This document shows, one piece after another, positions 10,600 through 40,970 of a stretch of 40,970 bases of DNA. The notes under the pieces were generated by a model, which made no database searches, had not been told where the DNA came from, and saw nothing but the letters and a program-made list of their open reading frames with translations. Where the stretch lies: positions 12,069-53,038 of the forward strand of contig MU604043.1 in NCBI GenBank assembly GCA_025201845.1, given 5' to 3'. The position numbers and the translations under genes were made by a program. Source of the stretch: Martensiomyces pterosporus. Its lineage: Eukaryota > Kickxellomycota > Kickxellomycetes > Kickxellales > Kickxellaceae. The number at the start of each line of letters is the position of its first letter. Position 1 is the first letter of the stretch.

Positions 10600-11145
10600 A
10601 AGTCAACAAAATGCAGATCGCAGAGGCAGCTGGTATAGAGTTTGCATAGCATCTTCCATGGCTCTGCTTTCATTAGATCCACCATTTCTTGAACGCAAGC
10701 CTCCTTTGCTGCCACACAGGCCCACGGATAGATCTGTGCAAATGCGAAACACGAATGACGTCGTCAGCAAAGCCCATGCGTTCCAGGGATCTGGCTGCCC
10801 ACCGGCTCAGGGAAACAGTCTACGTGCGCAATGTAGACACATGCGGCAGACTCGTGGCTCCTCATATTGGCAAGCATGTACGCAGTGTGTGTGGGCATGC
10901 AGCACGATATAGTCTCAAATAAGCCCACGTGCACCGCGGAACACCATTACCGCTTATATCCTTGGCAGCCCAGTACTCGTGTTTGCCTCGTGCGCTAGGG
11001 CGTGCTACTGGGCTATATATCTCTTGGCATGCAAGCATTAGCCCTTTCCGTTCCGGGTGCGTTTTTATCCCTGCCCTGTGCTTCTCCAACACCTACCCTT
11101 TCTCTCCCCTCGCTCTACCAAAGACTGCTAGAAGAAACCGACCGC
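10600..11145. other. Intergenic: CRAL-TRIO 3' flank and chitinase promoter
   Basis: No gene seen. It contains TGACGTCG at 10756-10763, close to a CRE-type bZIP site, and a TATATAT element at 11014-11020. Any use of the former is inference. Confidence 0.5.
11014..11020 (+). promoter_or_regulatory. TATA-like element of the chitinase gene
   Basis: TATATAT about 126 nt upstream of the chosen chitinase ATG. This spacing is plausible for a fungal TATA box, but no transcript start is known. Confidence 0.35.
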
Positions 11146-12402
11146 ATGCTCAGGAGTCTGATCTGTGCCTCAGCTACCTTGCTTGGCCTTGCTGCCCAGT
11201 GCATGGCAGCCGATGTGATCTTCGGGTACCTGCCAACATGGCAAACTGACATGGCCGAGAAGGTCGACTTCTCCAAATACACACACGTGGCCATCGCCTT
11301 TGCTGTCCCCGACGAGAACGCCACGATTTCGCTCGACAACAGCGATAGCACCCTGAAGGAGTGGATTCCCAAGCTCTCCGAAAGCAACACAAAGGTGCTT
11401 GTCTCGCTGGGCGGGTGGACCGGATCCAAGTACTTTTCGCCGCTGATGAAGGACAAGGACAAGCGCGGCAAGATGATTGTTCAGATGGTGCAGTGGATGA
11501 AGGACTACGGGTTCGATGGCTGGGACATTGACTGGGAGTACCCTGGCCGCCAGGGCAACATCTGCCACGAGTTTGATGCCAGAGCCGATGCACCAAACTT
11601 CCACCAGTTCTTGGGCGGCCTGCGCGAGGCACTGGCGAGCGAATTCAGGGGCCAGAGCAAGCTGATCACACTGGCCACTCGCTTCCAGCCCTTTGACGGG
11701 CCCAATGGACCCATGTCAGATGTGTCCGAGTTTGCAAGGGTCGTCGACTACATCAGCCCAATGCTGTACGATTTCAACGGCGTCTGGTCGGAAACCACAG
11801 GGCCCAATGCCCCATTTGATTTTGCGCAGGGCAAGGGTCTGCAGTTTTCCTTCAAGTCCTCGATCCAGTCGTGGATCGACGCTGGTGTTCCAGCAACCAA
11901 GATCATTCCTGGCGTTCCCTTCTATGGCCGAACTGTGACGGCCAAATCAGACATGTCCAAGATGCACGAGATGTACCAAGGCCTTACCAAGACCATCCCC
12001 AAGGGTGATGGCGACGACAAGGAAGAGGCGGATGCCTCTTGCGGCGGCCCAAAGGTCTTTTCAGGTGTCTGGAAGTACGCCAATTTGCGTAGCGAGGGCG
12101 TCCTCGATTCGCCTGGCAGTGCAGCTGCTCCATGGGTGAGGAGGTTTGATTCTGCGACAAACACTCCCTGGCTGTTCAACACAGAGACCAAAGACTTTAT
12201 CTCCTACGATGACACCGGCAGTCTGACCGCAAAGGCAGAGTATGCCAAGAACGCTGGTCTGGCTGGGATCATGGTTTGGTCGCTTACCGGCGACTACAAC
12301 AACGAGCTTCTCGGCTCCATTGCGTCTGTCATAGGTAGAACTAAGAGCGGACACATCCGCGAAGAGAACCAGCAGGATGAAGACAGCAAAGAGGACGCCT
12401 GA
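11146..12402 (+). CDS. Secreted GH18 chitinase
   Basis: 418 residues. The start is placed at the ATG that opens a classical signal peptide (MLRSLICASATLLGLAAQCMA), directly followed by the family's opening strand ADVIFGYLPTW. The frame stays open further upstream, but that part has no signal-like character and would bury the leader. GH18 motifs: SLGGWTGS, the catalytic DGWDIDWE with Glu at residue 131, substrate-site MLYDFNG, and the closing MVWSLTGDYNNELL. It should hydrolyse beta-1,4 N-acetylglucosamine chains with retention, in wall remodelling or in feeding on other chitin. Only the catalytic barrel is present: no chitin-binding module and no GPI tail, so release to the wall or medium is likely. 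Intron-free. It faces a small secreted protein gene on the other strand. Confidence 0.92.
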   Translation: MLRSLICASATLLGLAAQCMAADVIFGYLPTWQTDMAEKVDFSKYTHVAIAFAVPDENATISLDNSDSTLKEWIPKLSESNTKVLVSLGGWTGSKYFSPLMKDKDKRGKMIVQMVQWMKDYGFDGWDIDWEYPGRQGNICHEFDARADAPNFHQFLGGLREALASEFRGQSKLITLATRFQPFDGPNGPMSDVSEFARVVDYISPMLYDFNGVWSETTGPNAPFDFAQGKGLQFSFKSSIQSWIDAGVPATKIIPGVPFYGRTVTAKSDMSKMHEMYQGLTKTIPKGDGDDKEEADASCGGPKVFSGVWKYANLRSEGVLDSPGSAAAPWVRRFDSATNTPWLFNTETKDFISYDDTGSLTAKAEYAKNAGLAGIMVWSLTGDYNNELLGSIASVIGRTKSGHIREENQQDEDSKEDA

Positions 12403-13742: not shown

Positions 13743-15122
13743 CTACAAATTCCTCATCCCAGTCGGCTCTCCCTCAGCGATATAGTCGGCGCTAGGGCTT
13801 GGCGGTAACCTGAATGTTACATGCTGTCCATCGGGTATTTGGCCACCCGCAGCAGCAAGACTTGTAGGCTGAGTCAAGGCCTTTTGCGACTGCATGTGCT
13901 CCACCTCTCGATCCCAGTACGACTCTAGCCGACGTTTCTTCCACGATTTGTACAGGAAAAACAGCGCAACAGTCAGCACAATAGCGCCCAGTGCAGCACC
14001 AACGCCGACCCCGGCCCTTTGACCACTCGACAAGCCACCTGAACTCCTTTCCGATGATGCCTCTGCGGGTTTGGTTGGTTTGAGCTCATCGCTGTCGCTG
14101 TCGCTGTCGCCGCCATCTGTTTCTGTGGGTTCATTGGTGTGTGCATCGCCTGTCTGCATGGGTTTGGGCAAGGCTGGCGGCTCTTGGGAATGGGCGGCGT
14201 TTACAAGTGCACTTGAGACGCTGTGCTGTGAGTAAAGGTCTCCCCCAACAACCGTGACACCCTTAATGCTAGTGGCGTTGGCTGGAGCCATCGAATACAC
14301 GGCCTTTATGCTGGTGCCGTTGATTACACTATAGGCCCACTTGTAGTAATTCGGCAAGAGCGTGTAGTAGCTATACTCCTGGACGCCCTTCTGGCATAAA
14401 TCATCAGTGCCATACACGGCCGAGTGGCTGTATATGGCAACGACTGCAGAGTCATCTTTGGATTTCCCGCGCACCGAGCCAAATGGCAAGGAGCAGGAGC
14501 TCTTGCTTGCTGTCGTTGTGGCCAGGCTGGAACACAAAAAGGCGTTTTCATTTGCCCTGTACAAGCTCGAGGAGTTTTTGCAATCGGCACTGGAGCTGAG
14601 CGAACTGATCCCCGACGTTATGATCGATCTCGTTTGCATATCAGCGCTAATCGCGATTCGGACATACTCCAGCGCCGGCCAGTTGGTGATGCTCCCTTCG
14701 ATGCTGTAGAACATGTCTATGTTGTTTGGCCTCTGCTTGGAGTTGAACTGAAGCAGAGCAACGTTGTTCGCCATGGTGAGGTTGTTGTAAGACGGATGCA
14801 CTGTGATGTTTTCAACGTCAAAGGTCCTTGGGTCCACGCCGCTCTCTTGGGACTCTAGGTATACTTGGTAGATACCTGTGAGGTTTTTGCCGACCGATGA
14901 CATATCCAGGCAGCTCGCAGCAACAAATGCAGAGAGGTTATCCACAGGTGCTAGCTCGCACGATGTCTGGTTCCAGTGCTTTAGCAGGATACCCCCGCTA
15001 TACCTGCTGGTGTCGGCTTGGTCGTCTGGAGAGTCATTGCGGGCGCTCCCTGGGTCGCCATATGCCGTCCAAGGCAACTGCACCATCACTGGAAGCAGCG
15101 ACAGATACTTTCGCCACCGCAT
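13743..15122 (-). CDS. Membrane-anchored trypsin-fold pseudoprotease, paralogue 1
   Basis: 459 residues from the ATG that opens a signal-like leader (MRWRKYLSLLPVMVQLPW); the frame continues upstream but without leader character. The ectodomain aligns by eye with trypsin-like proteases: GGILLKHWNQTSCE (first strand and Cys), VAASCLD (normally AAHC), TMANNVALLQF (normally NDIALL), CSLPFGS (normally CxGDSGGP). The catalytic triad positions are thus Ser70, Asn120 and Phe214, so no protease activity is expected, while the cysteine framework is kept. An acidic Asp/Ser stalk follows (GGDSDSDSDEL), then a transmembrane helix with glycine repeats (GVGVGAALGA) ending ALFFLYKSW, then a basic stop-transfer and a tail of about 60 residues with WDREVEHMQS. 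Type I topology. It lies 17 kb from the main array and just downstream of an I78 inhibitor gene. Ligand and role unknown; perhaps a surface receptor or adhesin. Confidence 0.85.
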   Translation of the reverse strand: MRWRKYLSLLPVMVQLPWTAYGDPGSARNDSPDDQADTSRYSGGILLKHWNQTSCELAPVDNLSAFVAASCLDMSSVGKNLTGIYQVYLESQESGVDPRTFDVENITVHPSYNNLTMANNVALLQFNSKQRPNNIDMFYSIEGSITNWPALEYVRIAISADMQTRSIITSGISSLSSSADCKNSSSLYRANENAFLCSSLATTTASKSSCSLPFGSVRGKSKDDSAVVAIYSHSAVYGTDDLCQKGVQEYSYYTLLPNYYKWAYSVINGTSIKAVYSMAPANATSIKGVTVVGGDLYSQHSVSSALVNAAHSQEPPALPKPMQTGDAHTNEPTETDGGDSDSDSDELKPTKPAEASSERSSGGLSSGQRAGVGVGAALGAIVLTVALFFLYKSWKKRRLESYWDREVEHMQSQKALTQPTSLAAAGGQIPDGQHVTFRLPPSPSADYIAEGEPTGMRNL

Positions 15123-27500: not shown

Positions 27501-28000
27501 CATTGCGCCCTTGTGTCTAGCAGAGAACCTGTTGTTCCTCCATCAGCCGCTGGCAGCACAGGCGTCGCATCCACGCACAGCTCGGTGTTTGTAGCTTTGG
27601 GAATCGCTCTCTGAAGGGCGAGAGGAGGGGACAGAGGCTCTACCCTGTTTGAACATCTCCCAGAATCAAGGCGCCAACACCGCCAACATCCTACACTATT
27701 TATCCCATTCTCATATATAGCCATACCCGATCCCAGCCCCACCTCCACCCAAGTCTCCATCTCGCCCAATCTCAGCAACACCCTAGCACACCATTGCGCT
27801 AACTAGCTCCTTGCACAGCACGCGATTGTGTCTTTACTCACGCCTCGACATATCCGTAGGAACCTCCCCCAGGCGCCCTTTATTCTTGCTTCGCTTACCT
27901 CTATCAAGAACACCCAAGCTACCCACCTGTAACACTACCTCCAACCTCCCGAACAAAACAAAAACGCGCCAGCAGAAAACAAGGCGTCTACTTCAAGACC
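24511..28000. other. Gene-poor 3.5 kb region
   Basis: The longest stretch without a supported gene. It holds A/T runs near 25013-25025, a 69-bp tandem duplication at 27397-27534, and many short ORFs without domains. The last 400 nt (pyrimidine-rich, TATTTAT near 27696, TATATAG at 27714-27720) are likely the GH81 promoter and leader. Possibly a relic-rich or regulatory region; I see no transposon ends or RNA genes. Confidence 0.5.
27397..27534. repeat. Exact 69-bp tandem duplication
   Basis: Copies 27397-27465 and 27466-27534 are identical, beginning TGCCCTCTGTTGCTAG and ending AGAACCTGTTG. Non-coding, about 470 nt upstream of the GH81 start codon. Confidence 0.95.
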
Positions 28001-30646
28001 ATGCGCATGTCACCGCTGGCATCCATTGCCACAGCCACGCTTCTGTTCAATGTGGTCTATAGCTCTCCGCTCCAGGCTGCACCAGTGCAGGTCCCAGGCA
28101 CGCCGACCATCGGCACTGTATACACCGAGCTCAACACGCCCGGAATCGGCACGCCTGGAGTCGGCACGTCGACATCAGAGGTCAACGTGCAGACTGAAAA
28201 GTCGCTGACGACAACCAGGGGCAAGGAGCTCTGGATGACCACGCCAGCGACTGTCTCTCGACCAGCGGGCATCTCTACGTTTTTCACACTGACGCCCTCG
28301 CGGCACCCACAGCCACCCAGCGGCGCCCATGTTCCATCGCCCAAGGACCATGATAACATGGGAGATTCCGACAAGGAAGGAAACATCCACTCAGATGCAG
28401 CGTCGAACAACACAGCACCCGGGTTTGGGCACACGGAGCAGAATGTTCAAGGGATCATCTCGGCGCTGGATCCTCAGAAACAGAGCCCCTTGAACACCAA
28501 CGCGCCATTGGCGTTCAAGTCTGCAACCAGCCCTTACACGCCCAACACCAGCCTCTTCAACACCTCGGCCATCCGCACGCCCATGCAGACAAACCGCTGG
28601 TGGCAGAACCTGGTCATCGAATCAGGCATTGACCCAATCCACCCGTACCCGTACATGGTCAAGTGCCTGAGCAACTCATCCATCATCGGATTTCCGCAGT
28701 TCCAGGCCACGGAGACATCGATGACCAGCTCCCAGCCGCCGGACTGGGAGCTATCGGACAGCCAGGGTCGTCTGACCACACGCCAGGTGTCTGCGACTGA
28801 TGACTTGGGTGTGGAGGTCACCTGGATGGGCACGTCTCCCAGCACCTTCATGCGCTCGCGGTACTACAAGGGCATGCCGTTTTTGACGTACGAGATGAAC
28901 AACATGGCACCTCAGCTGAAGACCATCCACGCCATTCTGAAGGTCGAGCAGCTGGCGCGTTCGGTCAAGAGCGACGCCATCAGCACTGGTGCCGCGCTAC
29001 ACAAGATCGCGCGCCAACTAGGCGAACTCCCCTCATTGACGCAGCTGACGCTCAACGACAACTCAAAGTGGCTCCTGGTCTCCAAGCCCGCTCTTCAGTG
29101 GCAGCAAGGTGCAAACGGGCAGCTGGTCCCACAGGGCTTAGGTGCATCTAGCTTTACGGGCTACATCCAACTGGCACATCTGGGCGACGATACCCAGAAC
29201 AATCTGAATGTCCTGCAGCAGTACGCCGGCACGTACCCGATCGATGCCACAGTCACATACACGGCAGTCCAGGGCACGCAGCAGAGCCGCGCCTCAAATA
29301 TCATCTTCTTCTACAAGACCAACACGGATATTGGTGGCAGCACCTCGGGCGTCTTCAGCACACGGCAAGTGCCCACGTCGCTGCAGCTTTTGACCTTCCT
29401 GCTGCCCCACCACATGGACAACCTGAGCACGGCCAACTTGACCCAGCAGCCGCTTTCTGGGTATCGCTGCACCAAGGGGCCACTGACTGCCGTGGCCGGC
29501 AACTTCATCAGCTACAGCCAGCCGCTCGAGCCAGTGTCCTACGACGGACCACAGCCTATCCGCGCAGCCGACCAGGACTCGATCCAGCAGCAGCTGCTTA
29601 AGGACATCGTGCTGAGCACCAACGTCACAGCGCCCGACCCCTACTTCTACGGCAAGGGAGTGGCCAAGGTGGCGCGGCTGTACCAGATCGCACAGGAAAT
29701 CAACGACATCGCCAGCGCAGCCACTCTGCGCGACAAGCTCGTGGCGCTGCTGACGCCATGGCTGACCAGCCAGACAAACAGCGACCCCCTAGTGTACGAC
29801 TCTACGTGGGGCGGTGTTGTGTCCACCAAGGGGCTGAGCGACCCGAGCGCTGACTTTGGCCAGGGGCGGTACAACGACCACCACTTCCACTACGGCTACT
29901 TCATCTACGCCGGAGCCATCTTGGCTCACCACGACATCAACGCATTTGCGCAGTTCCGTGAGCCGCTCAACCAGATGCTGCGCGACTACGCCAACCCCAG
30001 CTACGCCGACTCGTGCTTCCCATTCATGCGGCACTTTGACCCTTACGACGGCCACTCGTGGGCCGCAGGTCTGTTCACCTTTGGCGACGGCCGCAACCAG
30101 GAGTCCACAGGCGAGGCAATCAACGCCTACTACGCCGCGTTCCTCTATGCAAAGGCTCTGGGCCTGGACGAAACGGCCGACTTTTACGAAATCATCCTCA
30201 ACATGGAGGCTGCCTCTGGCCGCCGCTACTGGCACCCGACCTTGGCTCAGGCCAAGGCACAGTACCTGGCGCCATTCACTCACAACGTGGTCGGCATCGT
30301 GTGGTCCAGCAAGGTGGACTACGCAACGTTCTTTGGTGCCGACCCTGAGTTCATCTACGGCATCCAGATGCTCCCGTTCACGCCCGCAACGAAGCTCCTG
30401 CTGAAGCCCGACTGGGTCAAGGAGGCCTGGTGCCCCGACGGCTCGACCTGCGCTGGCGGCATGAAGCCTGCCGCTGCCCACGCAGGCACCAGCGGATGGG
30501 CCCAGTTCCTCTACACGGCGTACTCGCTGGTCGACCGGGCCACTGCTCTGAACAACGTCGCGAGCTGCAGCCCGGACGATGGCAACACGCTGACAAACGT
30601 CCTCCACTGGATCGCCACCTGTGGCCAGCAAGTAGGCGGCAGCTAA
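28001..30646 (+). CDS. Secreted GH81 endo-beta-1,3-glucanase
   Basis: 881 residues starting MRMSPLASIATATLLFNVVY, a signal peptide. Residues 25-150 are Thr/Pro-rich and likely O-glycosylated (for example TPGIGTPGVGTSTSE). The GH81 domain fills the rest: NTSLFNTSAIRTPMQTNRWW at its start, then the central beta and linker parts, and the helical catalytic part with YNDHHFHYGY (acid Asp626) and QESTGEAINAYY (Glu701 and Glu705). Spacing of these carboxylates fits known family structures. It should cleave beta-1,3-glucan internally, typically in cell separation, spore release or lysis of other fungi. No carbohydrate-binding module or GPI tail. Intron-free. Together with the GH18 enzyme it gives two wall polysaccharide hydrolases in this window, though 15 kb apart. 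Confidence 0.95.
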   Translation: MRMSPLASIATATLLFNVVYSSPLQAAPVQVPGTPTIGTVYTELNTPGIGTPGVGTSTSEVNVQTEKSLTTTRGKELWMTTPATVSRPAGISTFFTLTPSRHPQPPSGAHVPSPKDHDNMGDSDKEGNIHSDAASNNTAPGFGHTEQNVQGIISALDPQKQSPLNTNAPLAFKSATSPYTPNTSLFNTSAIRTPMQTNRWWQNLVIESGIDPIHPYPYMVKCLSNSSIIGFPQFQATETSMTSSQPPDWELSDSQGRLTTRQVSATDDLGVEVTWMGTSPSTFMRSRYYKGMPFLTYEMNNMAPQLKTIHAILKVEQLARSVKSDAISTGAALHKIARQLGELPSLTQLTLNDNSKWLLVSKPALQWQQGANGQLVPQGLGASSFTGYIQLAHLGDDTQNNLNVLQQYAGTYPIDATVTYTAVQGTQQSRASNIIFFYKTNTDIGGSTSGVFSTRQVPTSLQLLTFLLPHHMDNLSTANLTQQPLSGYRCTKGPLTAVAGNFISYSQPLEPVSYDGPQPIRAADQDSIQQQLLKDIVLSTNVTAPDPYFYGKGVAKVARLYQIAQEINDIASAATLRDKLVALLTPWLTSQTNSDPLVYDSTWGGVVSTKGLSDPSADFGQGRYNDHHFHYGYFIYAGAILAHHDINAFAQFREPLNQMLRDYANPSYADSCFPFMRHFDPYDGHSWAAGLFTFGDGRNQESTGEAINAYYAAFLYAKALGLDETADFYEIILNMEAASGRRYWHPTLAQAKAQYLAPFTHNVVGIVWSSKVDYATFFGADPEFIYGIQMLPFTPATKLLLKPDWVKEAWCPDGSTCAGGMKPAAAHAGTSGWAQFLYTAYSLVDRATALNNVASCSPDDGNTLTNVLHWIATCGQQVGGS

Positions 30647-32784: not shown

Positions 32785-34128
32785 TCAGGGCTTGGGTGGA
32801 AGTGGCGGAGGAAGAAACGAAACTCTTCTTGGTGGCCAGCTGCGTTCTTGAGGAGCAGTGCTGAACGGACTCACTGACGGGATTTCCCCAAGATCATAGG
32901 CAAGGCTCTGCATGTGGAGCACCTCTGTCTTTGGGTCCCACATGACAGTCCTCACTCTCTTGCGCCACCACTTGTACAGGAAGAACAGCGCGACTATGAT
33001 AATGATAGAGACGATGGGGACGACGATGGCGATAATCATTGTCTGTTGGCGAGTTAGTCCGTTGCGTTCGGTGGACGACAGATCGACAGGTGGCGGAGCG
33101 GCTGGAGATCCAGTGACCGTGGCAGTAGCTAGGGGGGCGGTGCTTGTCGTGGGGGCTGGTGTGCTGGAACTGGCCGGTGCGGTCGCTTGGACAACCCCCT
33201 CAAGAGCGTAAATGTCGCCACCAACACTCTTGAACTTGCTGGTGGTATTTGTTGTTGCGCTAGGGGGGTTCATCGTGTACACGATGTTGTTGTTGTATGG
33301 CGTTGACTTCCCGCTTGAAAACATGACTACGCTGGTGTTTAGCACGTGAACCGCAAAGCCGGCATACTTGTCCAGGATCGTATAGTAGTTGAACTGTGTG
33401 CTGTTGCCACACAGCCCGTCACCATCGACCACGGTGTGGCTGTATATTGCAGCAATGGACAACTGCTGTTTATGAGCGGCATAGATTGCTCCGTAGGGGA
33501 CCTTGCACTTGCTGTCGTAGATGGACACCGTTGATGCGCTAATACACCTGTAACATGATTTATTCTCGGTGTACAGCGGCGATGCCCTGTCACACGCGAG
33601 ATCGCTGCTGAACTGCGTATAAACAGTGGGGACTCGCCACTTCATTTTAGCAACATCGCTGAGTGTCCGGCGCACATAGACCATATCTGTCCAGTCTCCA
33701 GGATTCCCAGCAATGTAGTTTTCAAACGGATTGCGTCCATCCTTGTTGAACTGGATGATGGCAATGTTGTTGGCCAGAGTGACCGAGTCATACGACGGGT
33801 GGACTACGATGTCAGTTGGGTCAATGCGGTACGCTATAGGGTCTACCTTGTTGCCGTCATCCAAGAAAACCTGGTAGGCGGTTTCAGTGCTGGGAAGCTT
33901 GCCAGAGTAGTCCAGGCAGTTTGCTGCCACAAAGGCAGATGAGGGGCCCATCAGTGCTACCTCGCACGACGTCTGGGTGCCGTTCTTCACTAGCAAGCCG
34001 CCACGAAACCCTTGGATATTAGTGGAATTGAAGAGTGGAGCATCAGACGGCGATGAGGTGCTGCCGCCAACTGACTGGAGCATGGCCAGGCCAGAAAGCG
34101 CTGCAGATAGCATGCGGGCAATGGTCAT
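32785..34128 (-). CDS. Membrane-anchored trypsin-fold pseudoprotease, paralogue 2
   Basis: 447 residues from the ATG at 34128 that opens a leader (MTIARMLSAALSGLAMLQSV); the frame is open further upstream without leader character. Ectodomain: GGLLVKNGTQTSCEVAL, FVAANCLDYSG (Asn70 at the catalytic His position; Cys55 and Cys71 match the 42-58 disulfide), VTLANNIAIIQF (Asn121 for the catalytic Asp), CKVPYGA (Cys208, Tyr212 for the catalytic Ser), then IAAIYSHTVVDGDGLCGN with Cys240 for the 191-220 disulfide. A Thr/Ala/Pro stalk follows near 330-375, then a transmembrane helix (IIAIVVPIVSIIIIVALFF), LYKWWRKR, and a tail with WDPKTEVLHMQS and a proline-rich end (SFLPPPLPPKP) that could bind SH3 domains. 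The tail is closest to paralogue 1. Catalytically dead by inspection; likely a surface binding protein. Confidence 0.88.
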   Translation of the reverse strand: MTIARMLSAALSGLAMLQSVGGSTSSPSDAPLFNSTNIQGFRGGLLVKNGTQTSCEVALMGPSSAFVAANCLDYSGKLPSTETAYQVFLDDGNKVDPIAYRIDPTDIVVHPSYDSVTLANNIAIIQFNKDGRNPFENYIAGNPGDWTDMVYVRRTLSDVAKMKWRVPTVYTQFSSDLACDRASPLYTENKSCYRCISASTVSIYDSKCKVPYGAIYAAHKQQLSIAAIYSHTVVDGDGLCGNSTQFNYYTILDKYAGFAVHVLNTSVVMFSSGKSTPYNNNIVYTMNPPSATTNTTSKFKSVGGDIYALEGVVQATAPASSSTPAPTTSTAPLATATVTGSPAAPPPVDLSSTERNGLTRQQTMIIAIVVPIVSIIIIVALFFLYKWWRKRVRTVMWDPKTEVLHMQSLAYDLGEIPSVSPFSTAPQERSWPPRRVSFLPPPLPPKP

Positions 34129-35243
34129 TATTGATGAGATCTTGAGCTGCACGTAGACGCTTGGTATGTGTGGGAATGTGGGGCAAATGCAGTTGCAGTG
34201 ACTGGATCTATGAATAAAAGTCAGGGGTAGATTGAGGTATGCAAACAATGCAGGCGGGAAAGCAGGGAGGGTGTGAGGGCGGTTGGGAACGGGAAGAAAG
34301 GTGCAGATTTCACTTGTCCATTCTCTCCTCCCTCCGTGGTGGAGGCAGCTATAAATATGCAGCCGCCAGCGCCGCCACACATGGGCTTTGTCCTAACTCC
34401 TCGCCTTGAATGTCTTTCGCTGGCTGCATCGACAAGCGGTTGATCAGGCTGCAGTGCTGTCGCTGTTCAAGCCCAAAGAGCAGCCACACCCCGCCACCTT
34501 TGCCTTGCAGTCTAATAATAGGCGCATCAACCGATCAGCAATGCCGCTGTTGTTGTTTGGCAGTCTGCAGGCCAGCTAAAAAAGAGAAAGGCGTTTGTGG
34601 CAACAGAGCGCTGCAAGACATCTGGAGCAGGGATTAGCACATGTACAACCTTTCATTCATCAATGTGCTTTTGTTTAAACCAATTGCACCTGAATGGGGA
34701 ATAGCTGGAAATCAAAACATGGTTGCTTGTGGCAAAGATCTTCGCTAATCGCTTATTAAGGGCATTTGGATGAATACACTGCTATTGTTATTGCGGCTGG
34801 TGTTATTTCTCAGAAGCATCACGAGCTGGCGAGCAGCCACTTGAGGCGCTTTCATGGGCTGGGAGGCGAGGGTGCATGGAGTTCTGATTGACCGAGGGAC
34901 TGGCAGGCTTCCTGGCTTGGTGCGCTGGCTTGCTATTGGTGCCTGGCGGGAACAAAAGCGGAAATGTGCAGCGTGGTGTAAATGCAGTGCTCGTTTTAAA
35001 AATAATGTGCGTAGCAGAAAAGGAAACAAGAAACTAATGGGCTGGCTCATTCGTAGGCCACCCCGTCGGGACTCTATTGGCAAAGAACTGTGCTCATTAT
35101 TCTGAGCGTCTCGAGATGCAGCTCGATGCACCTATCAAAAAGACAATGCATGTTGTATGAAGGCATGCGAGCCATGGAGGTCTGATGCTGCGCTATGCCC
35201 TGTGATTTCGCTTTCCACTTGTCTAGGGTTCCGGTAGAATCAG
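34129..35243. other. Intergenic between pseudoprotease paralogues 2 and 3
   Basis: About 1.1 kb with no supported gene. The half next to paralogue 2 carries its likely promoter; no relic of a further family copy was recognised. Confidence 0.5.
34350..34357 (-). promoter_or_regulatory. TATA-type element upstream of pseudoprotease 2
   Basis: TATTTATA on the minus strand, 222-229 nt upstream of the chosen start, similar in sequence and distance to elements before the I78 gene and pseudoprotease 4. Confidence 0.4.
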
Positions 35244-36581
35244 CTATAAAATGACCTTTGGGCTGAGTGGCTTGGGGCCAGCGAGGCTGTCGTATGTCGG
35301 CGGCTCAGCGTGGTGGCTGCTTGCTGCATCTGTGAACTGGGTGGTGCTCATAACCCGCAGGTTGTCTCTATATGGGCTCAGCCGAACTCTGCTCTTGCGT
35401 CGGCGCCACCACTTGTACAGGAAGAACAGCCCCGCGATAAGAGCAATCGAGACGATCGGAACCACGGTGGCCACAACAATAGTCTGGGTGCGCGTCAGCT
35501 TGGCACTGCTATTATCTGGCTGTGCAGTTGGGGTGGCCGCTATTGTCGGTGTGCTGGATGGCGTGCTGGATAGTGTGCTCGCTGGCGATGTCGGGCTGGG
35601 AGTCGCAATTGCGCTTGTGCTGGACTGTGGAGGGCGGTCAGTCCCCTTTGATTTCTGTTTCAACCCTACGAGTGGATAAATGTCGCCGCCGAACACGGAA
35701 ACACCCGAAATGGTGCTGTTGGCGACATCCTTCATCGCAAGCACTGTGGCATCAGTGACTGTGGACTGCTGGTTGCTGGCAAAGGTTGACACTCCGCGCT
35801 TGAGCACGCTTGCAGCAAACCCGACATATCTGGACAGCATCGTGAAGTAGTTGTACTCTGTGGCATCCGCGCAAATTTTGGTGCCACGAACCGCTGTGTG
35901 GCTGTACAGAGCAGCAATCGCCAAGCTGCTGCCAGCAGCGCCATATGCTGCACCATAGGGAACTGTGCACTCAGCTTTGGTTGAGTGCCATTCCATCGTC
36001 GTACACAGCCAGCTGTCCATATTCGCGCTGTAAATTAGAGATGCGTTGCGGCACTCGCTGTACTGCTTCATGTCGGGAGCCACGGACGGCACCACCCACT
36101 TCAGATTTGGCAGGCTGCCCATGTACCTGCGCACATAGGCAATTTCCGTCCACTCCGTTTTGTTCGCCGCTATCTGGTTGGTAAATGGGTTCGAGCCCGG
36201 CGAGTTGTACACGACTACCGCGATATTGTTGGCCAGCGTCTTTGGGTTGTATTCAGGGTGAACGTGTATCTGCTCGATGGTGTACTTTACAGAGGCGGTG
36301 CCGTTTCCGTTGTCGAGGTATGCATGGTATAGAGTGGTGGTGTTGAGCTTGCCATTGATGAAGTCAAAGCAGTTGGCGGACACAAACGATGCCTGGTGGT
36401 CTATAACGCCTAGTGTGCACGATGTCTGGTACCAATTCTTGGCCAGCACTCCTCCCTTTATCTTTAGTACGTCGGCACTAACAACCCCCCGCTTGCTGTT
36501 GGCATTGCTTCCGTGTGAATATGTTGGCTGCAGAAGCAGCAAAAGTGCGACAAGAGGCGAAGTGGTCCGTAGTATCACCAT
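35244..36581 (-). CDS. Membrane-anchored trypsin-fold pseudoprotease, paralogue 3 (PPxY tail)
   Basis: 445 residues with a strong leader (MVILRTTSPLVALLLLLQPT). Ectodomain blocks: GGVLAKNWYQTSCTLG, FVSANCFDF (Asn70 at the His position), KTLANNIAVVVY (Asn119 at the Asp position), CTVPYGAAYG (Cys205, Tyr209 at the Ser position), AIAALYSHTAVRGTKICAD. Several N-glycosylation sites (for example NTT, NGT, NKT). A Ser/Thr/Pro stalk (SSTSAIATPSPTSPASTLSS) precedes the membrane helix (IVVATVVPIVSIALIAGLFF) and LYKWWRRRK. The tail carries PPTY (residues 427-430), a PPxY ligand for WW domains such as those of Rsp5/Nedd4-type ubiquitin ligases. All three catalytic residues are missing, so a binding or receptor role is inferred. 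Confidence 0.88.
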   Translation of the reverse strand: MVILRTTSPLVALLLLLQPTYSHGSNANSKRGVVSADVLKIKGGVLAKNWYQTSCTLGVIDHQASFVSANCFDFINGKLNTTTLYHAYLDNGNGTASVKYTIEQIHVHPEYNPKTLANNIAVVVYNSPGSNPFTNQIAANKTEWTEIAYVRRYMGSLPNLKWVVPSVAPDMKQYSECRNASLIYSANMDSWLCTTMEWHSTKAECTVPYGAAYGAAGSSLAIAALYSHTAVRGTKICADATEYNYFTMLSRYVGFAASVLKRGVSTFASNQQSTVTDATVLAMKDVANSTISGVSVFGGDIYPLVGLKQKSKGTDRPPQSSTSAIATPSPTSPASTLSSTPSSTPTIAATPTAQPDNSSAKLTRTQTIVVATVVPIVSIALIAGLFFLYKWWRRRKSRVRLSPYRDNLRVMSTTQFTDAASSHHAEPPTYDSLAGPKPLSPKVIL

Positions 36582-37018
36582 CAGAAAAAGAGTGTGGTTT
36601 GGTTAACATGAGCACCGGAAATACAGGAGGAAAGGAGCAGGGGCTGTACTTTTGTTTCTCCAAAGGCCCCTGCGCACATTCGCACTGCTCCACATCGCCT
36701 ACGAATCGCCCCATATGTGGTGCATGGCATGTGGTGGATAGCTGGATGGGACAAAGTGAGGAGAGACACAGGCGATTTTCGTGCCGAACAGATTGCCCAG
36801 GATGCGCTGCATTTTCCCGCCTCAGAGTTCAGCTGCGACCTGCAAACAGCTGTGCGACTGCAAATCGCAATTGCGCTGCCCTTTGTGCGAATTATTCTCG
36901 TCGCCTATTCATAGATTTCCTAATCGGCTGCAATCACGTTTCCGGAAACAAGGAATAACAAGCAAGCTTGTATTTGGAATCAGGTGAGGGAGGTGTGGCA
37001 GGGGATAAAAGAGGCTGA
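36582..37018. other. Intergenic between pseudoprotease paralogues 3 and 4
   Basis: 437 nt, short for this array; promoter of paralogue 3 and 3' flank of paralogue 4. No clear TATTTATA element found here. Confidence 0.5.
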
Positions 37019-38497
37019 TTACATTGCTTTTTCATTTACATTAGCGGCTGGAGACATTGGGGGCAGCGGCTGCGCCATTACTGACTGCCGCATGTGGGGT
37101 TCCATGTATGGCGGCGGCGGCACGCTGAGGCGTGGCGTGGCGGGTCCAAACATCGAGGCAATTCTGAACCTGTCAGTTCGCGGGGTTTGCAGATAGCCGC
37201 CCGGCGGGATGGGGCTCAGCAGCGGTGGCGTCATCGAGTCGTCAAAGTCCCTGGCAATGGTCTGCGCGTTGAGGTTGCTTCGCTCGCTGCGTGGATCCCA
37301 CTCCATCTCGTGCTTGCGCCTTCTGTACCATTTGTACAGGAAGAACAGGCCAATAATGATGGCTATCGAAGCCAGAGGAACAACGGTTGCCACGATAATG
37401 GTCTCGTTTCGCGTCAGCCCTGCGCTGTCGTTTTTCAGAGGCCCTGGTGTGCTGGATAGCACAGTCGGCGTCCCTTCTAGCGACGAGCTGCTTGCTGCGG
37501 ATGCTGTTGGAACCGCGCCGACTGGTGCCGGTGTCTGTGTTACGCCTTCCTGAGGATAAATGTTGCCGCCAAACTGCATGATTCCACTGAGTGTATCCGA
37601 CGAGGGCTTTTTCATCTTGTATCTGGGGTCGGTGTTGGGCACAAAAGAGGTGCTGGCCACATATGTCTCGACGTACCTGCCCAGGACGTTGTTTGCAAAC
37701 ATGACGTAGTTTGAGAGCAACGTAAAGTATGTGAGCTGGCGCTTGTCCTTGCACATGTTGTTGCCTTGTATGGCTGTGTGGCTGTAAATCGCCGCGCTAG
37801 CCAAGTCGGAGCCAACCAGCGCGTAAGCAGAGCCATAGGGGATATAGCACGACTTGCTGTACACTGAGGTTGCTGTCACGTTGCCGCACCAGTAGTCATT
37901 GCGGTTCGTGTTGTAGATGTTCGAGTAGTCCTTGCACTCAGTGTCGATGGCCATGTCCGACTCGCTCATCTGTGGCGGCGCCCAGTTCATTGCCGCCACA
38001 TCCGTCATTGCTGTGCGAACGTACACGATGGACGTCCATTCAGCTCGGTTCAGGGCTATCTTGTTGGTCCACTTCTTTGAGTCAGCCGAGTTGAACTCGA
38101 TCACGACTATGTTGTTTGCCAGCGTGCTGGGATCGTAGACTGGATGCACGTGGAATTTATCCACTGTGTACTTGGCAGCATCCTGCCACTTGTTTTTGCT
38201 TATGTACACCTCGTATATGGTCGTCTTGCTGAGGTCCTTGCCGCTGTAGTCCAGGCAATTCGCAGCTATAAACCCGGCTTGGTTGTCAATGAGCACCACA
38301 TCGCATGTTGTCTGCATCCCATTCTTGATAAGGAGCGCAGTCCCGTAACTGGAAATGTCGATGTTCGAGACGTCCCTTTTGCCAAACAGCGGCGCAGGCT
38401 GCAGCTCGCTATTCCCCCGGACAAGCATAGAGAAGAGAAGCGCGGGCGCCAGGAACGAGAGAACGCTGGCGGGCCTCATGGTATTAAAAGGTAGCAT
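37019..38497 (-). CDS. Membrane-anchored trypsin-fold pseudoprotease, paralogue 4 (PPxY tail)
   Basis: 492 residues from the first ATG at 38497; a second in-frame ATG at 38479 (MRPASVLSFLAPALLFSML) also gives a good leader. Ectodomain: GTALLIKNGMQTTCDVVL, GFIAANCLDYSGK (Asn80 for His), STLANNIVVIEF (Asn129 for Asp), CYIPYGSAY (Cys217, Tyr221 for Ser), SAAIYSHTAIQGNNMCKD. A short stalk (VPTASAASSSSLEGTPTVLS) leads to the membrane helix (IIVATVVPLASIAIIIGLFF) and LYKWYRRRK. The tail is the longest of the family, about 95 residues, with WDPRSERSNLNAQTIARDF, a proline-rich middle and PPPPY (PPxY at 461-464). The tail groups it with paralogue 5 and the adjacent pseudogene. Role unknown; a receptor or adhesin that engages a WW-domain partner is a reasonable inference. 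Confidence 0.88.
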   Translation of the reverse strand: MLPFNTMRPASVLSFLAPALLFSMLVRGNSELQPAPLFGKRDVSNIDISSYGTALLIKNGMQTTCDVVLIDNQAGFIAANCLDYSGKDLSKTTIYEVYISKNKWQDAAKYTVDKFHVHPVYDPSTLANNIVVIEFNSADSKKWTNKIALNRAEWTSIVYVRTAMTDVAAMNWAPPQMSESDMAIDTECKDYSNIYNTNRNDYWCGNVTATSVYSKSCYIPYGSAYALVGSDLASAAIYSHTAIQGNNMCKDKRQLTYFTLLSNYVMFANNVLGRYVETYVASTSFVPNTDPRYKMKKPSSDTLSGIMQFGGNIYPQEGVTQTPAPVGAVPTASAASSSSLEGTPTVLSSTPGPLKNDSAGLTRNETIIVATVVPLASIAIIIGLFFLYKWYRRRKHEMEWDPRSERSNLNAQTIARDFDDSMTPPLLSPIPPGGYLQTPRTDRFRIASMFGPATPRLSVPPPPYMEPHMRQSVMAQPLPPMSPAANVNEKAM

Positions 38498-39059
38498 TGA
38501 CTAATGATGGGGGTGCTAACGTTGATGATTGTATGCAGTGCAGTAGAAGGGAAAGTGCTGGGCGCTAAAGTACAGTGTTGCGAGTGCCGCAGATATTTAG
38601 GGGCGGAAGGAAAGGTAACAGTACGGACGGGTAGAGAAAAGAAAGAGGGCCAAAGAAGCGTATGTCGATGGGGAATCTAGTGGGGAAAAGGAGGCGGCCA
38701 GCTCGTGTAGGTGCGCTTTCTGTTGGCAGACCGGTATAAAATACCAAGGGTCATTAGGCCAAGCCAAACTGTCTCAGCAACCTCGCATCCCCCAAATACA
38801 TGTACATGAATCGCTGGTCCTCACTCGCCTACGCCAGTAGCCGTTCAATGCTGCACATCGAAAATAGCATGGAGATCGCCAGCTGGTGCATTGGGTGGGG
38901 GAAATCGCTCTTGCCTACATGCGGCCGCCATCCTCATGGAAGGTGCATTTTAGAATTTACACGAGGCTCTGCAATGTGGTTTAGCCAGCAGATCCTGTTT
39001 TCATGAGGGTGCCGATTTTGCACGCCATAGGCTGCTGCTTTCACCGCCACAAGAAACCG
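38498..39059. other. Intergenic between paralogue 4 and the truncated pseudogene
   Basis: 562 nt, no gene seen apart from the promoter element of paralogue 4. Confidence 0.5.
38735..38743 (-). promoter_or_regulatory. TATA-type element upstream of pseudoprotease 4
   Basis: TATTTTATA on the minus strand within a short palindrome (GGTATTTTATACC), about 238 nt upstream of the first ATG. Confidence 0.35.
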
Positions 39060-39720
39060 CTACTTTTGTTGCCACAAAGGCACGTCCAGCTCAAATGCGC
39101 CCTTGCTTAAATTAAAGCCCCCACATGTGTACGCCCATATGCACATGTTGAATGGCTTGCGCATCGTGATGCCAGCAACAATGCTAAAGACCTGGGAAAA
39201 GAGCAAACGAGGGGCCACCCGCTTGTTGGAGCATTGCGGCTTCTCTGGCGGACGCCCACTCGCCATTGGCATCTCTGATGATGGCCCTGGCTGGCCAGTG
39301 CGATCGAAGTGGTGGTCGTCACATGCAGCTAGGATGCTCGTCTGTGGGCTGCTGACTGCAAGGTCTCTTGCGATGCTTCGTGAATTAAAGTTGCCCCTCT
39401 CCCCATGCGGATCACATGTCACGGTATTCCTGTGCTTTCTGTGCTTCCTGTGTTTCCTGTAGAAGAAATGCAATGCAACGATAGCTGTAACGAAAGTGGT
39501 GGGCACTGCTGTTGCCACTGCAATTGCCCCGCCTCTCGACAGCCTGGTGCTACTACTGTCGCTTGAAGAGGCAGGCGATAGTGGCAGCGATGCTATTATC
39601 TACAGACACCACCTCGCAGGGCGTCTAGGCACCATTCTTGATCAAAAGCCCAGCTGGGACCTAGCCCATCCGCATTTTGCTGATACTTCGCCTGTCTACA
39701 AGCACCACGGTGTCATTAGC
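39060..39720 (-). pseudogene. Truncated pseudogene of the pseudoprotease family
   Basis: Remnants of both ends of a paralogue lie next to each other. Around 39694-39601 the minus strand encodes DRRSISK, then a stop, VPAGLLIKNGA, a second stop (TAG at 39627-39625) and TPCEVVSVDN, matching the start of paralogue 4 (KRDVSNI ... ALLIKNGMQTTCDVVLIDN). The second stop replaces a conserved Gln codon (CAG). The next segment, in a shifted frame from 39599, reads a Ser-rich stalk (SLPLSPASSSSDSSSTR), a membrane helix (AIAVATAVPTTFVTAIVALHFFY) without the usual KWW, a repeated basic motif (RKH three times) and the tail block CDPHGERGNFNSRSIARDL. Nearly the whole ectodomain, some 250 codons or more, is deleted. 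The remaining 152-codon frame from 39518 could in principle still make a bare membrane-plus-tail protein. Confidence 0.85.
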
Positions 39721-40205
39721 TGAAAATGACCATAAAGCATCACCGCTGATAAAAGCGGCAGCTGCATCTTTGAGGACCTCATCTGCGTAAAGCACGTGCA
39801 TGCGTGAGTATAACGACAGAAAAACCACAACTCTCTCCAAGGCTGAATGAAAAGACACTTTTGACTGTTGTCGGGAGTGCCTGTAAGGCTTGGACAGATC
39901 CGTACATAAATACTTCCTTTGAACCTGCTTTTCCCTTGGATGTTCGTTAGCTTCGCAAACATCCAAATTGCTTGTTCTTATCAATATATTTGCTATACCC
40001 CTCGCTTCGCTAGCACAGACAACATATATTTATGACTCCACCAAGGCTTAGAGGAATGCGAGGCAAGAGATGGCTCATTTATTGAATCCAGCTGATGATG
40101 GTGGTGCCGTCAACATGTGTATTGCAGTAGTGGCATTATACTATGGATATTGCAAACACAGGAAATTGGAGGTGCCCATGTAGAAAAAAGCCCAACAAGA
40201 CTGGG
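39721..40205. other. Intergenic between the pseudogene and paralogue 5
   Basis: 485 nt. The pseudogene's upstream frame is open to 39984 but shows no clear leader or similarity. AATAAA on the minus strand lies at 40078-40083. Confidence 0.5.
40078..40083 (-). terminator. Candidate AATAAA poly(A) signal for paralogue 5
   Basis: AATAAA on the minus strand about 123 nt past the stop codon of paralogue 5, at nearly the same distance as the candidate for ATP-citrate lyase. Confidence 0.35.
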
Positions 40206-40970
40206 TTAACCTGCCTTCGTTGCCGAGTTCGTCGTCATTACGCTGCCATCGCGAGCCTCGCTGTACGAGGGCAGATCGGCATACGATGCTGATGCACCGC
40301 CAATTTCGTTAATAAGATTCTGTGCGTTGATGTTTTGCCGCTCAGCTCTGGGGTTCCACCCTTCCTCGTACTTGCGCTTCTTGTGCCACCGGTAGTACAT
40401 AAAGGCGCCCAGTATGAGCAAGCAAGTTACAACAGGGACCACAACAGCAATAACGATAATCTGGCTTTTTGTCAGCCCAGCATCGCTCCTAGTCGCAGGT
40501 TGACTGGACGCATCAGGAGTCGAGGCAGCAGTGCTAACTGCGTGTGTGGTTCCGGACGCTGTGGAGGATGCGGCGGTGGTTGAGGTGCTGCTCGTGCTTG
40601 TTGCAGATACATCGCCAGTGGCAGTAGAGGAGTACGACCCAAAGGAAGCAGGTGTTTGGATGACACCCTCGCGAGCATAAATGTCGCCACCAAAGACCTT
40701 TGTGCCAGCAGCGTTGCTTTGCGGCGCAGGAGGGTTCATCTTGTACTTGTCATCGAAGTTGGGCTTGTACTTGACGCTTTCTCTGTAGAAGGCATTCATG
40801 TAGCGGCCCAAGACGGTGTTCGCAAAGCTCAGGTAGTTGGAGAGCAGTGTGTAGTAGTGGAACTGGCGGCTGTTTCCACATAGGCTATCTCCGTAGACAA
40901 CTGAGTGGCTGTACAGAGCAGAGATGGCCATGTCACGGTCAACAGCACAGTAAATTGAGCTGTACGGCAC
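40206..40970 (-). CDS. Membrane-anchored trypsin-fold pseudoprotease, paralogue 5 (5' partial, LPxY tail)
   Basis: 254 codons of the C-terminal part; the rest lies beyond the right edge, so the His and Asp positions cannot be checked. The first visible block, VPYSSIYC, corresponds to the degenerate active-site loop and again has Tyr where the catalytic Ser belongs. It is followed by AISALYSHSVVYGDSLCGN, YYTLLSNYLSFANTVLGRYM and GGDIYAREGVIQ, as in paralogues 2-4. A very Ser/Thr/Ala-rich stalk (STSSTSTTAASSTASGTTHA) leads to the membrane helix (IIVIAVVVPVVTCLLILGAF) and YYRWHKKRKYEEGWNPRAE, then NINAQNL as in paralogue 4. The tail ends with LPSY, an LPxY variant of the WW-domain ligand. Confidence 0.88.
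   Translation of the reverse strand: MPYSSIYCAVDRDMAISALYSHSVVYGDSLCGNSRQFHYYTLLSNYLSFANTVLGRYMNAFYRESVKYKPNFDDKYKMNPPAPQSNAAGTKVFGGDIYAREGVIQTPASFGSYSSTATGDVSATSTSSTSTTAASSTASGTTHAVSTAASTPDASSQPATRSDAGLTKSQIIVIAVVVPVVTCLLILGAFMYYRWHKKRKYEEGWNPRAERQNINAQNLINEIGGASASYADLPSYSEARDGSVMTTNSATKAG

Follow-up and report, generated by a model that had tools for sequence, protein, structure and literature searches.

We analyzed a 40,970-nucleotide stretch of the 17.4-Mb genome of Martensiomyces pterosporus, referred to here as the window, which covers bases 12069-53038 of the 53,038-base contig MU604043.1 (C115 below) and ends on the right where the contig ends. The window holds genes of a family of trypsin-like proteins that lack the catalytic residues of trypsin and carry a predicted membrane anchor. 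Four complete minus-strand frames (596, 535, 452, and 493 residues), a fifth frame truncated where the contig stops, and a remnant were identified. They are given below in window coordinates, with residues at positions 57, 102, and 195 in chymotrypsin numbering.

13743..15122, minus strand: complete pseudo-trypsin gene P0001 (L023), start set at the Met at 15122 in a frame open to 15533; membrane helix at about 13953-14009; Ser, Asn, and Phe at 57, 102, and 195; tail without (L/P)PxY.
32785..34128, minus strand: complete pseudo-trypsin gene P0002 (L011), start set at the Met at 34128; membrane helix at about 32980-33036; Asn, Asn, and Tyr; tail without (L/P)PxY.
35244..36581, minus strand: complete pseudo-trypsin gene P0003 (L009); membrane helix at about 35424-35480; Asn, Asn, and Tyr; PPTY in the tail at 35292-35303.
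37019..38497, minus strand: complete pseudo-trypsin gene P0004 (L010); trypsin domain at about 37676-38341; Asn, Asn, and Tyr; membrane helix at about 37343-37399; PPPY in the tail at 37106-37117.
39306..39723, minus strand: decayed copy, with the start of the ectodomain at about 39595-39723 and the helix and tail at about 39306-39536, in differing frames.
40206..40970, minus strand: fifth array copy P0006 (L024), truncated by the contig end, with the trypsin domain present from position 193 on (Pro at 194, Tyr at 195); membrane helix at about 40404-40460; LPSY in the tail at 40263-40274.

The remaining trypsin domain of the decayed copy was not found between its two pieces, which were searched piece by piece only.

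A search of the whole genome with P0003 returned 19 matches, corresponding to 15 complete members, two members at contig edges, the remnant, and an additional fragment of one member. C115 carries four complete members, one edge member, and the remnant; three members each lie on C70 and C30, two on C37, one complete and one edge member on C114, and the others on C109 and C40. P0001 recovered the same set minus the remnant, and the ectodomain of a divergent member, used as a genome query, gave no additional family member. These searches score the best candidates only; the family numbers at least fifteen. All 15 complete members are stop-free open frames, and their trypsin domains share 31-50% pairwise identity (median 40%). 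Viral contigs and prokaryote species genomes yielded no confirmed relative of the family, a scope that does not bear on other fungi.

Profile alignment and structure prediction with structure matches both placed the ectodomain in the S1A double beta-barrel trypsin fold, as a first-pass annotation of this DNA had proposed from landmarks in the letters alone. The alignment is collinear, and all six cysteines that line up with the 42-58, 168-182, and 191-220 disulfide pairs are retained (the Cys at 168 in 14/15 aligned members), together with the C-terminal helix, a His-Pro, and an Asn-x-Ile-Ala block. The “GGxL” named in that annotation is the strand ahead of Cys42 and not the activation start. 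An extra conserved segment follows the domain. The structure model, of medium confidence, was built from the five window sequences only; an earlier model of the whole P0001 frame, untranslated lead included, was poor (predicted local distance difference test score 45.4) and served as a first look only. Neither the profile nor the tree described below includes the two edge members. Searching the PDB with a single sequence turned up nine weak hits (E 0.006-1.2), headed by ribonuclease inhibitor; activated protein C and trypsin were also among them. We took the ribonuclease-inhibitor similarity as chance, as the fold did not bear it out, and the collinear profile alignment and structure matches ruled out another alignment or fold.

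We compared the catalytic site with that of other trypsin-like loci in the genome. Out of 29 PF00089 matches, three were family members, one was a second piece of L052, and one was HtrA-like (L062), which left 24 other S1A loci, 14 with an intact His-Asp-Ser triad and 10 without. Chymotrypsin numbering was assigned to the joint alignment through known landmarks, and residue-level readings rest on alignments. No family member retains any of the three catalytic residues. Position 57 is Asn in seven members, Ser in seven, and Ala in one (His57 in 0/15); position 102 is Asn throughout (Asp102 in 0/15); and position 195, which is also visible in the edge members, is Tyr in 10, Phe in six, and Leu in one (Ser195 in 0/17). 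The oxyanion-hole Gly193, present in 14/14 intact trypsins, is replaced by Val, Ile, Met, Leu, or Thr in 17/17 family sequences, and position 194, Asp in 14/14 intact trypsins, is Pro in 17/17. The activation start, [IV]-[IVMT]-[GN]-G at 27-30 residues ahead of Cys42, occurs in 14/14 intact trypsins (13 of them after Arg) and in 0/15 family members; in L018 and L020 the pattern is matched by chance right beside Cys42. Catalytic chemistry has therefore been lost in the family, along with oxyanion hole and zymogen switch, and its members are predicted S1 pseudoproteases, with an S1 fold in which the catalytic residues are replaced. A Lys-Arg pair 24-30 residues ahead of Cys42, retained in 8/15 members, seems to be what remains of the activation site.

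Parts of the dead site are strongly conserved. Position 214 is Ser in 15/15 members and position 215 His in 14/15; residues 215-216 are His/Tyr-Thr/Ser in 15/15, in place of the mostly Tyr-Gly of intact trypsins, and other blocks are highly variable. Asn102, Pro194, Tyr/Phe195, Ser214, His/Tyr215, and Thr/Ser216 with these variable blocks would fit a shaped common pocket in variable surroundings. We also looked among the conserved alignment columns for an alternative intact His/Asp/Ser triad, the finding that would have overturned the first-pass annotation, and none was evident in those columns. The conserved His residues are at positions 119 and 241 of P0004 (241 being position 215), the conserved acids are at 67, 72, 84, and 114, and the sole Ser kept in 15/15 members is that at 214. 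The annotation had claimed that all three triad residues were lost, that the same losses were shared across paralogues, and that the dead site was conserved; all three claims held in the larger set, which forms one clade with support of 100/100 and keeps Asn102 and Ser214 in 15/15 and Pro194 in 17/17 at 31-50% identity.

Beyond the trypsin domain, 16/17 family sequences share an architecture of the Wsc/Mid2 type, as judged by hydropathy and composition: a Ser/Thr-rich stalk, one strongly hydrophobic helix near the end, and a short tail. The 60 residues before the anchor are 37-65% Ser, Thr, Pro, and Gly, and the tails are basic and 49-107 residues long. Stalk, helix, and tail had been part of the first-pass description and were found as described. 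Its leader was recovered less completely, with a hydrophobic peak at the presumed start in 11/15 complete members by a crude hydropathy test on starts chosen by eye; L015, L022, and L023 (the 13743 gene) fall below the cut-off, and L014 peaks only near earlier Mets. The helix and tail of L018, used as a genome query, matched family sequences only (15/15 returned, the remnant included). A Pfam scan of the six window proteins gave no WSC match and, in the stalk and helix region, sub-threshold matches to Mid2 (one, at 14.8 versus 23.2 bits), Psg1, and SKG6.

The tails, presumably cytoplasmic, carry an (L/P)PxY motif in 11/16 cases, as clients of Rsp5/NEDD4 do. Shuffled tails gave a mean of 0.57 and a maximum of 3 in 1000 rounds, a comparison that ignores the shared ancestry of the paralogues. 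In 9/11 cases the motif lies 41-46 residues past the helix, and it is rare elsewhere (1/17 ectodomain parts and 3/25 other trypsin-like frames). A W-[DN]-P motif occurs in 9/16 tails. Tyr-x-x-hydrophobic sorting motifs, found in 7/16 tails, showed no excess over shuffles (mean 6.68) and were dropped. (L/P)PxY is the ligand of the WW domains of Rsp5/NEDD4 ubiquitin ligases, and on C46 of this genome three matches to WW and one to HECT fall, in Rsp5 order, on the same strand inside 2.1 kb.

The 10 other S1A loci without an intact triad fall into three sets. Four of them (L049, L051, L053, and L056, on C204, C184, and C18) have a membrane helix and tail of their own, and we refer to them as the second anchored group. 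Their residues at 57/102/195 are Y/D/Y, T/D/G, L/D/A, and F/D/F, respectively, and they retain Asp102, Gly193, Asp/Glu194, and an IVGG-type start. A LAEELGG-like tail motif occurs in 3/4 of them, and the L049 tail (QLAEELGG) matches only L051 and L053 in the genome. L055, L057, and L058 (C45 and C104), with D/N/A, E/N/A, and K/N/G, group with intact L004, L046, and L047, their next of kin being intact trypsins on C28. L059, L060, and L061 (C77, C150, and C30) form a third dead set, two of which show gaps in the alignment at or beside the Ser195 loop. A broken-looking S1-like relative at C213:9288-10151 and a weak match on C19 were left out of all counts. None of the 14 intact loci has a hydrophobic helix near its end followed by more than two residues, and an intact triad is absent from every one of the 20 sequences that have both helix and tail (16 of the family, four of the second group), with only position 195 visible in the edge members among them.

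The second anchored group formed a clade separate from the family, with support of 100/98, and on the tree no fewer than four switches between the intact and the dead state are needed. The approximately unbiased test rejected a single loss shared by all the dead trypsins (p = 8e-5), as it did two other groupings (p = 0.012 and 1.6e-4). A single clade of the family with the second anchored group was not rejected (p = 0.345), and neither was one of the family with L059-L061 (p = 0.269). The strongest match of a divergent family ectodomain outside the family was L049 (E 2.8e-5); with L049 as query, a family member appeared at E 5.7e-6, far weaker than the hits on intact trypsins, which reached E 7e-40. 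Alignment of the tails of the two anchored groups gave a mean score of 34.75 against 28.0 for shuffled tails (standard deviation 1.25; 0/200), yet searches with the tails, run at E values of up to 10, never led from one group to the other in either direction. A single origin of the anchored dead trypsins is therefore possible, and anchoring would have arisen once or twice.

The members of the family are probably binding receptors rather than enzymes. We tentatively favor the reading, drawn from sequence, of a single-clade fungal cell-surface pseudoprotease family with a putative binding head, a WW-recruiting tail, and ubiquitin-dependent uptake. The head would be a binding module that projects through the cell wall, and its altered active-site cleft or diversified loops would contact a protein or peptide ligand. 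The tail would recruit a Rsp5/NEDD4-type ubiquitin ligase via its WW domains, and the receptor, ligand-bound or not, would next be tagged with ubiquitin and internalized. That the genes have duplicated in tandem, decayed, and diverged to 31-50% identity suggests a set of recognition specificities and not one housekeeping role.

Several observations weigh against this reading. The motif is missing from 5/16 tails, it was spotted by eye ahead of the shuffle test, and that test is blind to the kinship of paralogues. On C46, WW and HECT are matched in two different open frames, of 377 and 453 residues, so that a single Rsp5-like gene is an assumption. L017 has a glycosylphosphatidylinositol-anchor-like end and no tail, and 4/15 members show no clear hydrophobic leader at the presumed start in the crude test.

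We also weighed other explanations for a conserved dead head on a stalk. The proteins could be structural or adhesive wall proteins, or wall-stress sensors like Wsc and Mid2, in which the head is a stable, glycosylated, mechanically coupled domain without a specific ligand pocket. The stalk, single helix, and short tail, the sub-threshold matches to Mid2, Psg1, and SKG6, and the presence of glucanase and chitinase genes in the window all agree with such a role. We nonetheless consider it unlikely, as a spacer would need none of the constraint seen in the cleft (102 and 214 fixed in 15/15, 194 in 17/17, and 57, 195, 215, and 216 narrow at 31-50% identity), and the six window proteins lack a WSC match. 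Decoys that soak up the protease inhibitors, or hold the protease substrates, of prey, host, or competitor, and so shield the 14 intact S1A trypsins of the same genome, seem a good deal less probable. One intact trypsin does lie about 7 kb from the C70 family members and two lie about 41 kb from those on C30, but the surface on which inhibitors dock has been remodeled (193-195 is [VIMLT]-P-[YFL] in 17/17 and 215-216 is His/Tyr-Thr/Ser in 15/15), which should weaken canonical inhibitor binding, and a membrane anchor fits a receptor better than a decoy.

That the heads are active through another set of residues is very improbable. His215 (14/15) adjoins Ser214 (15/15), and an Asp or Glu stands two residues past Cys58, at P0004 position 84, in 13/15 members; set against this, Gly193, Asp194, and the activated N-terminus are gone, and in known S1 structures Ser214 is buried and 215 is in the S2-S4 wall. 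We give equally little credence to the idea that these are functionless relics on their way out, for which the one remnant in the array might speak. Fifteen full-length frames at 31-50% identity, with conserved cysteines in 15/15, helix and tail in 14/15, and tail motifs in most, suggest long purifying selection, judged here from conservation.

The window contains other genes besides those of the family. The first member of the family has a GH18 chitinase-like gene (10999-12402) on its left, and the space between that member and the array includes a gene of the GH81 beta-1,3-glucanase-like kind (27860-30646). A protein kinase gene at 3-2072 has a long glutamine run in its C-terminal part, and a fused ATP-citrate lyase gene was also present. 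Zn2Cys6 domains are a fungal hallmark, and the genome holds 27 matches to them; with the GH81, GH18, and fused ATP-citrate lyase genes, they indicate a fungal source.

A wider proposal, which we regard as doubtful, is that a fungal lineage made trypsin into diversified surface recognition receptors: switch and catalytic centre would be gone, stalks would span the wall, and a WW-binding tail would couple ligand to ubiquitin-dependent uptake. Within arrays, copies would be gained, drift apart, and be lost as those of recognition genes are, and anchoring would be linked to the death of the enzyme, having arisen once or twice. Proof that a protein is a pseudoenzyme is difficult to obtain, and such proteins are often examined singly. 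Here one small fungal genome offers a graded series, from 14 intact trypsins through anchored forms that are partly stripped to a 15-member family without catalytic and activation apparatus, along which the path from enzyme to binding module can be tested. Should the heads bind ligands, they would represent a fungal receptor class on a protease fold, with a testable predicted partner for the tail.

We compared the family with known systems. Like S1A peptidases, represented by the 14 intact trypsins, it has a collinear domain with three aligned disulfide pairs, the C-terminal helix, His-Pro, and Asn-x-Ile-Ala; unlike them, it has no triad, Gly193, Asp194, or IVGG, and adds a post-domain segment, stalk, helix, and tail. 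The second anchored group shares the dead head, single helix, and cytoplasmic tail, with Tyr or Phe at 195 in 2/4, but differs in the Asp102, Gly193, Asp/Glu194, and IVGG-type start that it has kept. Protein Z, a non-catalytic S1 homologue, ranked first or second among the structure matches, within 1 Z of most other rows. Haptoglobin, azurocidin, insect serine protease homologues, and oomycete glucanase inhibitor proteins are also non-catalytic S1 homologues, soluble and secreted. In all of these the trypsin fold has outlasted its catalytic residues and serves for binding or as a cofactor, whereas the present heads are membrane-anchored, partly tandem, provided with a recurrent tail, and found in a fungus. 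With the membrane adaptors and cargo of Rsp5/NEDD4 the family shares (L/P)PxY in a cytoplasmic tail, in a genome with adjoining WW and HECT domains; we know of no such adaptor with a pseudo-trypsin ectodomain. The wall sensors Wsc, Mid2, Hkr1, and Msb2 likewise combine a leader, a stalk rich in Ser and Thr, one helix, and a short tail, but where their head is a WSC, Cys-rich, or mucin domain, that of the family is a pseudo-trypsin.

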